Shown: positions 453 to 5,820 of the stretch, in pieces
Position numbering within the stretch: the first letter of the stretch is position 1
Layout of the letters: the number at the start of each line of letters is the position of its first letter
Source: Bacteroidota bacterium
Lineage (GTDB): Bacteria; Bacteroidota; Bacteroidia; B-17B0; B-17BO
Length of the DNA: 6,264 nt
Assembly (NCBI GenBank): GCA_025356715.1
Contig: JANXRU010000085.1
Span: 1-6,264, forward strand
Direction: 5' to 3'
Program-made: the position numbers and the translations under genes
The notes under the pieces: generated by a model
Told to the model about the DNA's origin: nothing
Database searches by the model: none
What the model saw: the letters and a program-made list of their open reading frames with translations, nothing else

Positions 453-2885
453 TTAATTCTTTTTCAATCTATTTTTCTCTGCCTCATTACCTTTATTATG
501 TTCATCAAATTTTAGTTTAGTATTACCAAAATTATAAGTAATAGTGAATCGTACTCGCCTTGTATCTGCATATTGTTTAAATGTGAAGTTTTGATTGTCA
601 AAAGTTGACGATACTCTAGTTACGCTAGTATAAAACATATCGGATGCATTGAGTTTAATCGTAAATTTATTTTTGAATAGATTTTTTTTAAGTCCGATAT
701 CCACACTACCTTGTGGCTTCAATTGCATAATACCATACTGTAAAGCCCCTGTATATTGCCCAGATAATTCTACACTAAATTCTTTTGGTAAAATAAATTC
801 ATTAGTTAAACTCACTTGAAAAGAGGGCTTTCCAAAGTTGAAATTAACACCATTGACATTCCCTTCAAATGATTGATACCAAGCACTAAAATCAAGTTGA
901 GCAACATATATTTTTTTTACAGGAATATAAGCAAACAAATTATAGGCAAATTGATTTACTGAATTTATATTTTTTGAAATTTGAGTTGTTTCTTTGGTTA
1001 CATCATTTTGTGATATCAATTCCATAATTGAGTTTTCAGTTCTACTATACGACAACGTGTTGTATAGCGCTCCCATAAAGGAATGCGTTAAGCTTAAGTT
1101 ATGACTTGTTTCAGGATTCAAAAAAGGGTTCCCTTGATTAGCAGTGTATTGATCAATATAATGCTTAAAAGGATTCAACTGAAAGTAATCAGGTCGATTA
1201 ATACGACGGTTATATGAAAACTGTATAGCATGTTTTTCAGAAGCCTTGTAATCAAAACTAATATTTGGAAATAGTTGAAAATACTCCCGGGTATTTTTTG
1301 AATTAATGGTTTTATTAAAGCCAATGGCATTGGTATACTCGCCCCTTACGCCCAACTGCATCGATAGTTTTTTAAATTCTTTTTGATAATTAAAATAACC
1401 CGCTGCTACTTTTTCGTAGTATAAAAAATTATTACTGTAATTTAAGTCGTTATAATAATTATCGCTAATAGTATCTTTCCGTTCAAACAAAAAATCATTA
1501 TTTGTGTTTACTCCACTATATTTTAGACCTGTTTCTATAGTGGTTTTTTTAGCAAGTGGCTTTTTAAAATTCAATGCGCCAATAAACATATCAATATCTG
1601 AATGAATGGTGTTTTTATACACATTCGGAAATAGATTACCCACTAAATTATTAGAGGTATCATAAAAATAATTTCCGTAACCGTTATTTCCCTTCTCTTG
1701 ATACTTAGTATAATTGAACGACGCATCCATTTCTGCACCCAACGTATCCAGCTTATGTAAGGCATTAACATTTATATTATTATTATTCCAATTATTTTTT
1801 ACTGTACTTAGAGCTTCCAAATAATTAAACCCAACCGTATTATTTCCTAAAATGTTGGTAATGTTTTTTCCAGATTCATTAGGGCTTCCTGTACCTCCAT
1901 CCCATACAACACCTAACGTTGTTTTACTATTAATAAACCAGTCAACGCCAAGTTTATAATCGTTAGCTTGATTTTGTTTTGTCTCTACGCTTTTTTGATC
2001 GAAAATTAAATCTTCGCCAGTTGTTTTTATTTTTCTGTTTAATAAAATCGTTGTTAATCTATTACGTTGTATAGCATTAAAATTACTCGTGATGGCAAAT
2101 TTTTCTGCTTTGTAATTTAAAGCGAACCCTCCGTTACCACTCCAAAATTCGCCTCTGCTAACTCCTGAATTTACATTCCCATTTAAACCAATTAATTTTG
2201 CTTTTTTTGTTTTAATTTGAATAATACCAGCAGTGCCTTCTGCATCATATTTCACGGATGGATTTTTCATTATCTCAATAGTCGAAATTCCTTCCGCACT
2301 CATGCTTTGCAACATATTAGCTAATTGATCAGGAGAGAGTTGTTGCATACGCCCGTCAATCATAATCTTTACGCCTTTTTTTCCTTGTATTGAAATATTA
2401 TTATTGTTATCAATGGTTACACCTGGCGCACGCTTCAATAAATCATAAGCAGAATTACCAGCAGCTAATGTTGAATTTTCAACATTTAAGGTGATGTTTC
2501 CATTTTTAAACTCTACTAATGGTTTAATAGCAACAATCTCTACCGATTGAAGATCAACACCAGATTTTTCAATGATTAGATTTTCTAATAGAAAATCTTT
2601 TTGATTCTCTATTATTTCAAAAGAATTTGAAAATTTATTACTCATCCCTACTACCATCCCTTTGATTATATAATTTCCAGTAGGTGTTTTTTCAAATTCA
2701 AATGTGCCGTCTTCCTTAGTGTAATTACCTTTTACGATACTACTATCTTTTGCTTTGATTAAAGCCACCGTTGCAAAGGGTAGTGGTTCATTTTCTTTTG
2801 TAACTAATTTACCCTTAATAGTTGTTTGAGAAACTAAAAATGTAGATTGTATAATTATGACTAAAATAATGAGTAGTGGTTTCAT
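453..2885 (-). CDS. TonB-receptor-like outer-membrane beta-barrel protein with CarboxypepD_reg-like N-terminus
   Basis: This is an 810-residue outer-membrane protein. A signal peptide spans residues 1-20 (hydrophobic LLIILVIIIQ, cleavage near LVSQ|TT). Residues 22-105 form a CarboxypepD_reg-like domain (TIKGKLVTKENEPLPFATV, EDGTFEFEKTPTGNYII). Residues 130-228 form a receptor plug, with SAYDLLKRAPGV, then KIMIDGRMQQLS, then IEIMKNPSVKYDAEGTAG and IIQIKTKK. The rest, 230 to about 785, is alternating beta-barrel sequence of the OMP_b-brl_3 type (outer membrane beta-barrel family). It ends in RRVRFTITYNFGN followed by a charged tail of about 30 residues, as is common in this subfamily. Length is normal, with no frameshift. 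No convincing TonB box is visible, so TonB dependence is not proven, and the substrate cannot be predicted. The ATG at 2883-2885 is favoured because the signal peptide begins there. A 97-bp gap with two dyads separates it from the upstream pspC-like gene. Confidence 0.93.
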   Translation of the reverse strand: MKPLLIILVIIIQSTFLVSQTTIKGKLVTKENEPLPFATVALIKAKDSSIVKGNYTKEDGTFEFEKTPTGNYIIKGMVVGMSNKFSNSFEIIENQKDFLLENLIIEKSGVDLQSVEIVAIKPLVEFKNGNITLNVENSTLAAGNSAYDLLKRAPGVTIDNNNNISIQGKKGVKIMIDGRMQQLSPDQLANMLQSMSAEGISTIEIMKNPSVKYDAEGTAGIIQIKTKKAKLIGLNGNVNSGVSRGEFWSGNGGFALNYKAEKFAITSNFNAIQRNRLTTILLNRKIKTTGEDLIFDQKSVETKQNQANDYKLGVDWFINSKTTLGVVWDGGTGSPNESGKNITNILGNNTVGFNYLEALSTVKNNWNNNNINVNALHKLDTLGAEMDASFNYTKYQEKGNNGYGNYFYDTSNNLVGNLFPNVYKNTIHSDIDMFIGALNFKKPLAKKTTIETGLKYSGVNTNNDFLFERKDTISDNYYNDLNYSNNFLYYEKVAAGYFNYQKEFKKLSMQLGVRGEYTNAIGFNKTINSKNTREYFQLFPNISFDYKASEKHAIQFSYNRRINRPDYFQLNPFKHYIDQYTANQGNPFLNPETSHNLSLTHSFMGALYNTLSYSRTENSIMELISQNDVTKETTQISKNINSVNQFAYNLFAYIPVKKIYVAQLDFSAWYQSFEGNVNGVNFNFGKPSFQVSLTNEFILPKEFSVELSGQYTGALQYGIMQLKPQGSVDIGLKKNLFKNKFTIKLNASDMFYTSVTRVSSTFDNQNFTFKQYADTRRVRFTITYNFGNTKLKFDEHNKGNEAEKNRLKKN

Positions 2886-2982: not shown

Positions 2983-4812
2983 TTATTTTTTTGAATTAAT
3001 TTGAACTCCGTTTTTATCCAATTTAATATCTTCATTTTTATCTTGAATATGAACTCCGTCTTTATCTATTTTAATAGAACCATCATTATCTTTAATGTTT
3101 AATCCATTTACGGTTATTTTTACATCGCCATTTTTTGTTGTATTAGTTGGTTCGTCCTCATCATCATCTTTATCTGAATTAGAGATAATACCGTCACAAT
3201 CAACACATTTTAGTCCGCTATCAGTCATTATCCATCGGCGATTTATCATATCACCATCGTAAGTGTTAGTTACATTTTCTAAGTCATAAAACAAAGACAC
3301 TAATGATTTATCCAGATAAATAGTCTTACCAACGGGAACTTTAAAAATAACGGTTACATCTTGCACTCTAAATTTATCTGCATTCATAACTTTAAAAATA
3401 TTATCAAATTCTATCGTACTATCATGTTGAGAAACAAAGTAAGAAATGTTTTTTGCGCGTAATGTTGCCACTTGTTTATCGCCACCTTTAGCTTCCTTCA
3501 CTATTACTATTTCAACTTTTTCAGATTGAGATTTTATAATGTTTAGATGTGCATAACCTAATAAATATTTTTTACCATTATTTGTTCCAATCATATAATC
3601 ATTATCTCTTTTTCGTATTTCGAAATCTTTTTCGCCTTCTTTACCATCATCACTTTCGCTCAATTCTCCATAATTTACAGCCGTTTCGTTCATTTTTAAA
3701 TAAAGGGTTTCATACTGATTAACTGTAATGCTCTCTCTTACTTTCGCCGTTTTATTAAAATCAGTGCCTGTTTTAATTCCAACATACACCAGCATTAAAA
3801 AACCTAGCAACCAAAAAACGCCTGCACTTAAATTTACCCAACGGTTACTATAATTTATTTTAAATAAAATTTTGATACCACCATAAATCATCATAATAAT
3901 AGGCGTTCCGGCAAATATGGCAATTCCTATTATTCCAATATAAAAATCCTTTCCATCTAATAAAATAAGATCAATCCATTCGCCACCATTATTACTATTC
4001 ATAAAAAATGATGCTCCGAAAACTGAACTTGTTAAACCTAAAAAGAATATTACCCCAAAAATCACTAACAAAACACCTATCACTTTTAGAATTACCCGTC
4101 CAATATTTCCGAATAAATCACCTAAAAAGTCCACCAACTTTTCAGCTGCATTTCTTGGAGCGCCACTATTAGCCATATTATTAAATTCTTTACCGTATTT
4201 TTCCATTCGTTTTTTTAATTGCTCAGCTTCTTCTTTCACCGCTTTAGAAATATTATTGATGTCGGCTTTTTCACCTTTCATAGCAAGCTTTTCAGTCATT
4301 GTTTTTGCTTCAGGTATAGCAATCCAAAGGATGATATAAATTAAAACACCTGTGCCTGCAAATACTAAAAGTAACGCCAACGCTATTCTCAACCACACCG
4401 GATCAAAACCAAAATAATGACCAATACCTGAACAAACACCGCCTAATACTTTACTATCACCATCACGGTATAAGCGTTTTTTTACTGGTTCATTACTTAC
4501 ATTCTCAGTATAATCAGTGTTTGTCGTATTATTTGAGTTCGTTTGTTCATCACCTGCAAACTCTTCAGGTTTACCCATGTTATCCATTACAAAATCTACA
4601 TCGCTCATTAAAACAACTTGTTTAATAGCGCTTGTTTTGCCTTGTAGCATTTCTGCGATACGAGCTTCTATATCACTCATAATTTCACTACCGCCATCAG
4701 CCTTACTAAAATAGCCTTTAATGGTATTTAAATATTTACTTAATTTATCATAAGCCTCTTCTTCTATATGAAAAATAATGCCGCTTATATTTATGGTTAC
4801 TGTCTTATTCAT
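2983..4812 (-). CDS. PspC-domain inner-membrane protein, long Bacteroidota type
   Basis: This is a 609-residue membrane protein related to the phage-shock PspC family. Residues 1-88 form a cytoplasmic N-terminal segment typical of the Bacteroidota version (NISGIIFHIEEEAYDKL, YLNTIKGYF, SDIEARIAEML). The PspC domain lies at about 111-169 (KKRLYRDGDSKVLGGVCSGI, YFGFDPVWLRIA) and ends in a hydrophobic stretch at 141-167. A charged helical linker follows (180-212), then further membrane segments near 237-260, 290-312 and 326-347. The soluble C-terminal region (350-609) is beta-rich, with a Cys-x-x-Cys pair (C536, C539), an acidic stretch at 547-554, and three 16-residue tandem repeats at 562-609. 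PspC proteins sense or relay envelope stress; the signal here is unknown. The start lies 17 bases after the padR stop, which points to one transcript. The frame is intact and of normal length for this type. Confidence 0.9.
   Translation of the reverse strand: MNKTVTINISGIIFHIEEEAYDKLSKYLNTIKGYFSKADGGSEIMSDIEARIAEMLQGKTSAIKQVVLMSDVDFVMDNMGKPEEFAGDEQTNSNNTTNTDYTENVSNEPVKKRLYRDGDSKVLGGVCSGIGHYFGFDPVWLRIALALLLVFAGTGVLIYIILWIAIPEAKTMTEKLAMKGEKADINNISKAVKEEAEQLKKRMEKYGKEFNNMANSGAPRNAAEKLVDFLGDLFGNIGRVILKVIGVLLVIFGVIFFLGLTSSVFGASFFMNSNNGGEWIDLILLDGKDFYIGIIGIAIFAGTPIIMMIYGGIKILFKINYSNRWVNLSAGVFWLLGFLMLVYVGIKTGTDFNKTAKVRESITVNQYETLYLKMNETAVNYGELSESDDGKEGEKDFEIRKRDNDYMIGTNNGKKYLLGYAHLNIIKSQSEKVEIVIVKEAKGGDKQVATLRAKNISYFVSQHDSTIEFDNIFKVMNADKFRVQDVTVIFKVPVGKTIYLDKSLVSLFYDLENVTNTYDGDMINRRWIMTDSGLKCVDCDGIISNSDKDDDEDEPTNTTKNGDVKITVNGLNIKDNDGSIKIDKDGVHIQDKNEDIKLDKNGVQINSKK
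2986..3129 (-). repeat. Three tandem 48-bp units encoding 16-residue repeats
   Basis: The last 48 residues of the PspC-like protein split exactly into three units: GDVKITVNGLNIKDND (3082-3129), GSIKIDKDGVHIQDKN (3034-3081) and EDIKLDKNGVQINSKK (2986-3033). The shared pattern is xxIKIDKDGVxIxDKN, which suggests paired short beta strands joined by Asn/Asp-Gly turns. The DNA is also repeated: gaactccg occurs at 3003-3010 and again at 3051-3058 with long flanking similarity. That suggests fairly recent duplication of at least the last two units. Confidence 0.85.
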
Positions 4813-4829: not shown

Positions 4830-5162
4830 TTATTTTTTTGTAATAGTTTTATTAACGGCATCTACCAATTCGTACCAAGACAGATGTAATTCATTTAAAT
4901 AGGTTTGGCCAATTTCGGTAAGCATATAATACTTGCGTGGTGGCCCTGAGTTACTTTCTTCCCATCGGTAATTAAGCAATCCTGTATTTTTTAACCGGGT
5001 TAAAAGCGGATAAAGAGTTCCCTCAACTACTACTAACTTTGTTTCTTTTAATTTCTCAATAATTTCAGTAGGATAAGCGTCACCTTGAGAAAGGATAGAA
5101 AGTATGCATAGTTCGAGAACACCTTTGCGCATTTGAGCTTTTGTGTTTTCTGAATTTACCAT
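4830..5162 (-). CDS. PadR-family transcriptional regulator (short form)
   Basis: This 110-residue DNA-binding protein has the full PadR winged-helix pattern. It runs MRKGVLELCILSILSQGDAY (residues 11-30), the recognition region TEIIEKLKE with VVEGTLYPLLTRLKNTGLL (about 32-63), and the wing with SGPPRKYYMLTEIG (72-85). A short C-terminal helix (86-107) is the usual dimerisation part of the small PadR subfamily. PadR proteins are mostly repressors that bind dyads and often control their own operon. Its start is 4 bases after the stop of the upstream small exported protein gene and its stop is 17 bases before the PspC-like gene, so it sits inside an operon. Pairing of PadR with PspC-domain proteins is common in Bacteroidota. 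The likely target is the dyad in the divergent region at 5717-5753. The ligand is unknown. Confidence 0.95.
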   Translation of the reverse strand: MVNSENTKAQMRKGVLELCILSILSQGDAYPTEIIEKLKETKLVVVEGTLYPLLTRLKNTGLLNYRWEESNSGPPRKYYMLTEIGQTYLNELHLSWYELVDAVNKTITKK

Positions 5163-5166
5163 AATT

Positions 5167-5517
5167 TTATATTGTTTTAAAGTTAAATTGAATTCCGTAT
5201 GTATGGTTTGCTTTCAATTGATTAAGTGTTAACTTCATAAACTGTTTTTCAATTGATTGTTTTAAGAATATATTAGTTGTATTTGCAATAACCAAATTGA
5301 CTTTACCAATTTCATTAACAGTAAACACCACTTTTACTTCTTCTGTATGATTTGTTTCTTGAATGAAATTTGGAAATGTAATTTGATTTTTAATTTCTTT
5401 AAGAACATTAACTCCAATGGTTGTATTCGGATTCCCAATTTCTTTAGCTTGAGTTTTAAATGCTATTAATAAACCTGCACTTAAAATGATAAGTGATTTT
5501 TTTATAGTTGTTTTCAT
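5167..5517 (-). CDS. Small exported protein, possibly TonB C-terminal-like
   Basis: This 116-residue protein has a clear signal peptide: a basic start (MKTTIKK), a hydrophobic core (SLIILSAGLLIAF) and a likely cleavage after TQA at residue 24. The mature part (about 92 residues) resembles a lone TonB C-terminal domain: VLKEIKNQITFPNF (38-51), EVKVVFTVNEIGKVNLVIA (60-78), a helix at 83-95 and a final strand YGIQFNFK (107-114). The first part matches the usual YP...V.V.FTV...GKV pattern, but there is no membrane anchor or proline-rich linker as in true TonB. It is therefore probably a free periplasmic protein. It is the first gene of the padR-pspC operon, 4 bases before padR, so its translation may be coupled to padR. 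The TonB likeness is a judgement by eye; the function is unknown. Confidence 0.8.
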   Translation of the reverse strand: MKTTIKKSLIILSAGLLIAFKTQAKEIGNPNTTIGVNVLKEIKNQITFPNFIQETNHTEEVKVVFTVNEIGKVNLVIANTTNIFLKQSIEKQFMKLTLNQLKANHTYGIQFNFKTI

Positions 5518-5669: not shown

Positions 5670-5682
5670 TTTAGTACTGTGC
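5670..5682 (+). repeat. Extra copy of the TTTAGTACTRTGC motif
   Basis: TTTAGTACTGTGC matches TTTAGTACTATGC (5721-5733), the left arm of the large dyad, at 12 of 13 positions. Its core TAGTACTG is centred 51 bp from that arm's core, three times the 17-bp distance between the two arm cores. It would fall just downstream of the predicted minus-strand start site, a usual place for an auxiliary repressor site. Confidence 0.55.
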
Positions 5683-5703
5683 CATCTTTATTAGTTGGCC
5701 ATA

Positions 5704-5735
5704 CAAAGATAGATTATTTATTTAGTACTATGCAA
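5704..5735 (-). promoter_or_regulatory. Predicted promoter of the small protein-padR-pspC operon
   Basis: On the minus strand a -7 box TATCTTTG (5711 down to 5704) matches the Bacteroidota consensus TAnnTTTG exactly. A TTG that fits the -33 element lies at 5735-5733, with a 21-base spacer. It falls in the five-base centre of the inverted repeat at 5717-5753, so a protein bound there would block the promoter. The expected start site is near 5697. This rests on consensus matching only. Confidence 0.6.
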
Positions 5736-5753
5736 CACATAGTACTAAATAAA
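5717..5753. promoter_or_regulatory. Perfect 16-bp inverted repeat, candidate PadR operator
   Basis: The left arm (5717-5732, TTTATTTAGTACTATG) is the exact reverse complement of the right arm (5738-5753), around a 5-base centre (CAACA). Each arm contains the 8-bp palindrome TAGTACTA, with cores 17 bp apart. The repeat overlaps the -33 element and spacer of the predicted minus-strand promoter, as expected for a repressor site, and it lies upstream of the divergent terC-like promoter. The only regulator gene in the window, the PadR-type one, is in the operon it would control. A terminator is unlikely because no gene ends into it from either side. Confidence 0.65.
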
Positions 5754-5812: not shown

Positions 5813-5820
5813 TATATTTG
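5813..5820 (+). promoter_or_regulatory. Predicted -7 box of the terC-like gene
   Basis: TATATTTG matches the Bacteroidota -7 consensus TAnnTTTG. The expected start site near 5827 would leave a leader of only about ten bases before the ATG at 5836. No strong -33 TTG stands at the right distance; the closest candidate is GTTA at 5793-5796. Confidence 0.5.

Follow-up and report, generated by a model that had tools for sequence, protein, structure and literature searches.

A conserved dyad in the promoter of a padR-pspC operon of Bacteroidota is probably an autoregulatory PadR operator

The window, by which we mean the whole stretch of 6,264 nucleotides that was analysed, holds a minus-strand operon with a padR gene, the predicted promoter of that operon and a divergent TerC-family gene. 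The features that concern us are given below, with signed numbers counted from the predicted transcription start.

5836 onwards, plus strand: TerC-family gene, divergent
5813..5820, plus strand: -7 box TATATTTG of the divergent TerC gene, placed by eye
5738..5753, no strand: right arm of a 16-bp inverted repeat
5717..5732, no strand: left arm of the same 16-bp inverted repeat
5723..5747, minus strand: O1, a 25-bp dyad TAGTACTATGTGTTGCATAGTACTA, core of the perfect inverted repeat 5717-5753 and putative PadR dimer site, about -48 to -24
5733..5735, minus strand: TTG in the -33 position at the centre of O1, placed by eye, 21 nt from the -7 box
5704..5711, minus strand: -7 box TATCTTTG, placed by eye and by conservation, with a predicted transcription start at about 5699
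5672..5696, minus strand: O2, a weaker second dyad 51 bp downstream of O1, about +4 to +28, with TAGTACTG (5672-5679) as its distal arm
5167..5517, minus strand: first gene of the operon, a 116-residue protein that looks exported (by eye)
4830..5162, minus strand: padR, a 110-residue PadR subfamily-2 repressor (PF03551), putative binder of O1 and O2
2983..4812, minus strand: pspC, a membrane protein with PspC, LiaI-LiaF-TM and Toast-rack domains and a HAAS-like N-terminus
453..2885, minus strand: OMP_b-brl_3 / TonB-receptor-like gene, after pspC

The operon consists of the small exported protein, padR and pspC, and probably includes the barrel gene as well. The first-pass annotation had placed the site at a divergent promoter next to padR and had spoken of a padR-pspC operon, and this is right: padR (5162-4830) and pspC (4812-2983) are neighbours here, and the gene pointing away from them belongs to the TerC family. 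No Pfam match was found for the 116-residue protein at 5167-5517. In many related loci the operon opens with a small protein of similar length.

The padR product matches PF03551 with 70.6 bits (cut-off 27) and, at 110 residues, fits PadR subfamily 2 in both size and domain. The cited passages of PMC3506622 give as subfamily motifs a helix EGT(L/I)YPxLxRLE, a wing G(P/R)RKYYx(L/I)TxxG and a Trp in the last helix; by eye, the window protein has EGTLYPLLTRLK (the last residue differs), PPRKYYMLTEIG (one residue differs) and LSWYEL in these places. The helix-2 motif YGYE(I/L) is absent from the window protein, which has the only partly similar AYPTEI. We take this motif as typical rather than defining because the published list gives subfamily-conserved residues, with the consensus drawn at 50%.

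Upstream of the operon lies a perfect 16-bp inverted repeat (5717-5732 and 5738-5753) around a centre of 5 nt, exactly where it had been reported before; all the coordinates of the first-pass annotation proved to be correct. None of 60 simulated first-order windows contained an inverted repeat of at least 16 bp with a centre of 3-20 nt. The core TAGTACTA occurs twice inside the repeat, at 5723-5730 and 5740-5747, which are 17 bp apart, and a third core, TAGTACTG, is found at 5672-5679, 51 bp from the nearer TAGTACTA core. Over the whole window nine words lie within one mismatch of TAGTACTA, against 3.2 expected, a count that was reached in 2 of 200 shuffles; among the matches listed, the three named cores are the only such words between 5036 and 6264. 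The repeat and the dyad are not due to chance. The arrangement had been described as a three-copy array. All three copies are indeed present, but it is better put as a strong dyad, O1, and a weak dyad, O2, with the third copy as its distal arm.

Housekeeping promoters of Bacteroidota follow the pattern TTTG/TAnnTTTG, and their -7 box ends in a G at -5 (PMC6847099); the same -7 consensus appears in the cited part of PMC9723704. With this G at -5, transcription is predicted to start at about 5699, so that O1 covers approximately -48 to -24 and O2 approximately +4 to +28. The -33 element lies at the centre of O1, and the offset from the dyad to the -7 box TAnnTTTG is mostly constant.

The conservation of this site was first assessed in related padR loci. 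A scan of public genomes for padR gave 62 loci, from which one Clostridia record (L062) was excluded. The first-pass annotation had named an absent or unconserved dyad upstream of orthologous operons as a result that would count against the operator, and this did not come about: 54 of the 61 loci have a dyad scoring at least 17 of 25 in the 1200 bp before padR, or 55 of 62 sequences when the window is included. Permuted dyads score 17 or more in 3.9% of tests, a threshold not far over chance, and seven of the 54 dyads score only 17 or 18. The seven uncounted loci are L015, L021, L035, L043, L045, L053 and L060. For the first five of these the upstream sequence is only 137-998 bp long; the L021 genome has a dyad on another contig (G415:C108) without a link to padR. 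No site was found in the 1200 bp upstream of padR in L053, and L060, with a score of 17, was removed by hand, a related dyad and a -7 box being visible there by eye. Second-best dyad scores near -78 in L038, L040 and L042 were dropped, as by eye these apparently fall within the final stretch of the reading frame before.

Among the 55 sequences, TAC is kept in 96-100% in both arms and its G in 89% and 82%, while the inner TG and CA are kept in 98-100%. The two letters between TAC/G and the inner TG/CA are more variable, at 58-91% (left T 91, A 85; right T 64, A 58). In the -7 box (offsets 36-43) the six fixed letters are kept in 93-100%. The inner TG and CA lie outside the cores and are as well conserved as the TAC of the cores, and because of this we read the TAGTACTA cores as half-sites of a single 25-bp dyad, GTACTATG-N5-CATAGTAC, which is the conserved unit. 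The dyad remains at padR where the divergent or the first gene is another (by eye).

A second and broader sample, the phylum draw, comprised 395 genomes from the phylum of G002 (uncultured Bacteroidetes), 93 of which carry one padR homologue at E<=1e-30. The sequence upstream was analysed for 92 of these homologues; G002 was already used and therefore excluded. A dyad scoring at least 15 of 18 within 1300 bp upstream accompanies 87 of the 92, a score that 20 permuted dyads reach in 2.1% of tests. The pattern TAnnTT[TC]G follows 30-43 nt after the dyad start in 79 of the 87 cases, and at an offset of exactly 36 in 63.

The five misses are L285 and four PadRs with Asn for Thr in the recognition helix (EGTLYPLLNRLK). 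Asn replaces Thr in five of the 92 PadRs, and a good dyad is missing in four of these five against one of the other 87 (Fisher p 9e-6, uncorrected for relatedness, for a pattern noticed post hoc in few related genomes). There are exceptions in both directions: L286 has Asn and a normal dyad, and L285 has Thr and a poor one. This covariation is the strongest indication we have that PadR itself would read the site, with the qualification that the four Asn proteins look related. The Asn PadRs of L289-L292 have a changed dyad, RGAATTAGG/CAAGGTAGC in three and AGAAACTGG/CAAGGTAGC in L292.

O2 is weak in the window itself, and its conservation is partial. A right-type half-site of at least 7/9 stands at +66 from O1 in 32 of the 55 sequences, compared with at most five at each of the four next-ranked offsets. 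Because the distal arm of O2 recurs at this exact offset, we regard the 51-bp register as real for some members of the group. Of the 87 dyads of the phylum draw, 24 have the left half-site of O2 at +52, and its right half, the distal arm, is not among the top offsets there. The 51-bp spacing claimed for the window is thus borne out in the related loci but not, for the distal arm, in the phylum draw. When the O1 profile is used for the scan, the best secondary offset is 34 in 30 of the 55 sequences, 51 in 17 and 68 in four. Offset 34 was not counted as an operator because it overlaps the -7 box, where TTTG resembles TATG, and this resemblance to a half-site is probably why it ranks first. There may be a weak 17-bp ladder of sites. 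At a distance of 51 bp we infer that side-by-side cooperation is more likely than a loop.

The dyad is also rather specific to its place in the genome. When up to two mismatches are allowed, a match is found in 19 of 20 and 33 of 41 genomes, with a single place in 17 and 26 of the matching genomes, respectively. These places were confirmed to include 48 of the 54 padR dyads. The padR dyads of L054, L056 and L057 were not found at up to two mismatches; places are given for L051, L052 and L058 without a locus, which puts them outside the 48. In the phylum draw, 62 of the 395 genomes have a match at one mismatch. Without G002 this amounts to 69 places in 61 genomes, and 47 of these genomes carry a padR homologue (E<=0.001). 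Twenty-six of the 69 places precede such a homologue at a distance of 30-1209 bp, 29 lie elsewhere in genomes with padR and 14 in genomes that lack it.

Eight of the 29 elsewhere places precede a gene that encodes OMP_b-brl_3 or Plug domains (L088, L094, L106, L147, L148, L149, L151 and L152), and the place of L093 precedes a short CarboxypepD_reg frame. In L147, L148, L149, L151 and L152 a -7 box follows at offset 36, as in padR promoters; these five count as one or a few events because they are orthologue-like (by eye). By eye the offset is 38 in L106 and 29 in L094, and L088 has no -7 box near 36. The nine genomes with barrel or CarboxypepD_reg places have 7-41 OMP_b-brl_3 matches each, pieces included, and we attach no probability to the association. 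A dyad of its own in front of the OMP_b-brl_3 gene in L147, L148, L149, L151 and L152 suggests control in trans. In L085 a PadR-type dyad stands ahead of an ABC transporter ATPase gene (PF00005), which is followed by a permease-like frame (by eye).

The remaining off-padR places come before unrelated genes or before operons of HTH_34 regulators, and in part they are a look-alike dyad of another regulator. The look-alike, TACTTTG-N5-CAAAGTACTT, was seen directly ahead of the operons of HTH_34 winged-helix proteins (PF13601) in L087 and L103, both scanned. L082, L091, L100, L165, L166 and L168 resemble these two in the regulator or in the neighbouring membrane protein (by eye). Two winged-helix families may therefore share nearly one operator code.

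This raises the possibility that a different winged-helix regulator reads the dyad at padR, as some HTH_34-type regulators appear to use TACTTTG-N5-CAAAGTA. Look-alikes do precede HTH_34 operons (two scanned cases and others by eye), the distinguishing letter is unfixed at padR, where the A of the left-arm TATG is kept in 64% of the phylum draw, and TTG and CAA occur in the two arms of a few padR dyads. However, the look-alikes read TTTG/CAAA, and from their end to the start codon there are at most about 40 nt, whereas in most padR dyads a -7 box follows some 36 nt after the dyad start; the dyad also goes with padR in 87 of the 92 loci of the phylum draw; we therefore give this reading very little weight. 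The same low weight falls on the idea that the main target of O1 is the divergent TerC gene. Many related loci do have a similar protein pointing away at 85-100 nt (by eye), but the predicted TerC start is some 80-100 bp downstream of the dyad, and the dyad persists where the divergent gene is another, for example in L007, L010, L030 and L054, which led us to reject TerC control as its main role.

The alternative that each 8-bp TAGTACTA core is a full site for one dimer, with the three cores forming a cooperative array or a repression loop, was the reading first proposed. The core is self-complementary, the spacings of 17 and 51 bp are exact and an arm stands at the 51-bp dyad spacing in 32 of the 55 sequences. 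This proposal has been weakened by the strong conservation of the inner TG and CA, letters beyond the cores whose constancy speaks for a single 25-bp dyad. The phylum draw does not retain the third copy, and the cdPadR1 sites in the cited passages of PMC5050560 are dyads with TACT and AGTA half-sites. We consider this reading unlikely and reject one dimer per core. Still further down the scale is an RNA hairpin or intrinsic terminator, which the inverted repeat could in principle encode and which was flagged as a terminator-like hairpin on the minus strand at 5754-5716. The -7 box is downstream of the repeat, which contains only three G-C pairs, and arm changes are mostly one-sided, with 100 against three two-sided changes that still pair in the first set and 271 against 18 in the phylum draw; there is no Rfam match at the gathering threshold. 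Position, the few G-C pairs and the one-sided changes are our reasons for rejecting this reading, which we regard as extremely improbable.

In our judgement it is highly probable that O1 (5723-5747) is the autoregulatory operator of the PadR encoded at 5162-4830, with promoter blocking, O2 and a signal acting in the steps proposed here. The operator with bound PadR that the first-pass annotation envisaged fits the evidence in silico: a dyad accompanies padR in 87 of 92 homologues and stays where the divergent gene differs, and PadR is its likely binder. Starting from the sites, their conservation and their place relative to the promoter, all of which are read from the sequence, we propose PadR binding, repression, a role for O2 and a signal as follows. 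A PadR dimer would bind the 25-bp dyad, each of its two recognition helices reading one arm, with about one turn between them. Bound in this way, PadR would cover the -33 element and keep RNA polymerase off the operon promoter. A second dimer probably sits on the weaker O2 near the start site, about five turns away, and would tighten repression. An envelope signal would then relieve it, most likely through the HAAS-like N-terminus of the PspC/Toast-rack protein, or else a small ligand would do so.

That PspC would be the likely input to PadR is suggested by its N-terminus. HAAS domains are reported to pair with PadR, and HAAS-PadR pairs occur with PspC/Toastrack (PMC11237479). The HAAS-like stretch of the window PspC scores 13.8 bits, under the Pfam cut-off of 27, and 20 of 23 aligned members have a HAAS match at E<=10, the best at 4.1e-8. 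A model of the N-terminus has three longer helices and a GxP turn; a Foldseek search of this model against the PDB gave nothing with E below 0.7. The coding stretch for the N-terminus (4483-4812) holds a conserved MGKPEEF motif, and a two-stranded beta hairpin stands ahead of the HAAS-like helical prediction.

A wider picture can be drawn, which we hold tentatively and as a little short of probable. It would be an old PadR-PspC envelope-stress circuit conserved across Bacteroidota, with an operator centred on -33, joined in some of the phylum by another at the start site in an exact 51-bp register; it would control the inner-membrane PspC sensor and an outer-membrane barrel, the latter in cis or through separate operator copies, and PspC would release PadR through its HAAS-like domain. 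What the analysis offers is a clear operator and a candidate regulon for a regulator that about one in four of the sampled genomes carries (93 of 395) and that is linked to a PspC/Toast-rack membrane protein and to outer-membrane barrels. The Thr/Asn change that goes with a changed dyad is a route to a base-reading rule.

By sequence, the best PDB relative of the window PadR is the PadR 5h20, which we take to be Bacteroides fragilis BF2549. A close homologue of 5h20 (by eye) in L083 has the dyad upstream, and the site may already be described in published DNA-binding results for this PadR. Among the matches listed in our literature search, which had most subscription journals outside its scope, no description of the dyad in Bacteroidota was found; one of them, PMC4752239, mentions PadR in a passage unrelated to the dyad and was set aside. 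Within that search, what appears to be new is the wide conservation, the register with a Bacteroidota promoter and the few operator copies ahead of outer-membrane barrel genes.

The gene arrangement has a known counterpart in the HAAS-PadR pairs, where a stand-alone PadR likewise stands beside a PspC/LiaI-LiaF-TM/Toastrack membrane protein with a HAAS-like N-terminus. In the cited passages of PMC11237479 these pairs are described by genes and domains, with no operator given. At the level of the operator, LmrR, LadR and PadR use ATGT-N8-10-ACAT (PMC4517056, PMC3506622, PMC5050560). Such an operator shares with O1 a dyad that would serve a PadR dimer, and LmrR also autoregulates, but half-site and spacing differ. 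ATGT-N8-10-ACAT has two matches in the window (1755 and 2468) and none at the operator, in keeping with the earlier remark that the core departs from the ATGT/ACAT half-site type.

The closest known system is cdPadR1 of Clostridioides difficile R20291, for which gel shift shows binding to TACT(N11-12)AGTA; its own promoter has two copies, one of which overlaps the predicted -35/-10, and an AT-rich spacer is required for binding (PMC5050560). The window dyad is TACT-N11-AGTA at 5726-5744, one of two in the window against 0.17 expected. Its spacer ATGCAACACAT has A or T at seven of 11 positions, and it sits in the predicted promoter of padR itself, overlapping promoter elements. The suggestion of an undescribed PadR site type thus falls to this precedent, and we reject a new type. 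Judged by its letters, O1 belongs to the cdPadR1 operator type and would work like it. The two systems have in common a PadR of subfamily 2, an autoregulatory placement and TACT(N11-12)AGTA dyads, and the second cdPadR1 site contains AGTACTATGTATT, almost the Bacteroidota left arm (PMC5050560). They differ in phylum and promoter type, and the cdPadR1 dyads, 25 and 52 bp upstream of the gene, are more closely spaced than O1 and O2. The cited passages of PMC5050560 give 200 genome matches, from a search that allowed 200, in contrast to mostly one strong place per genome here. Taken together, the comparison suggests that TACT-N11-AGTA is a code of PadR subfamily 2 common to a Clostridioides and to Bacteroidota.
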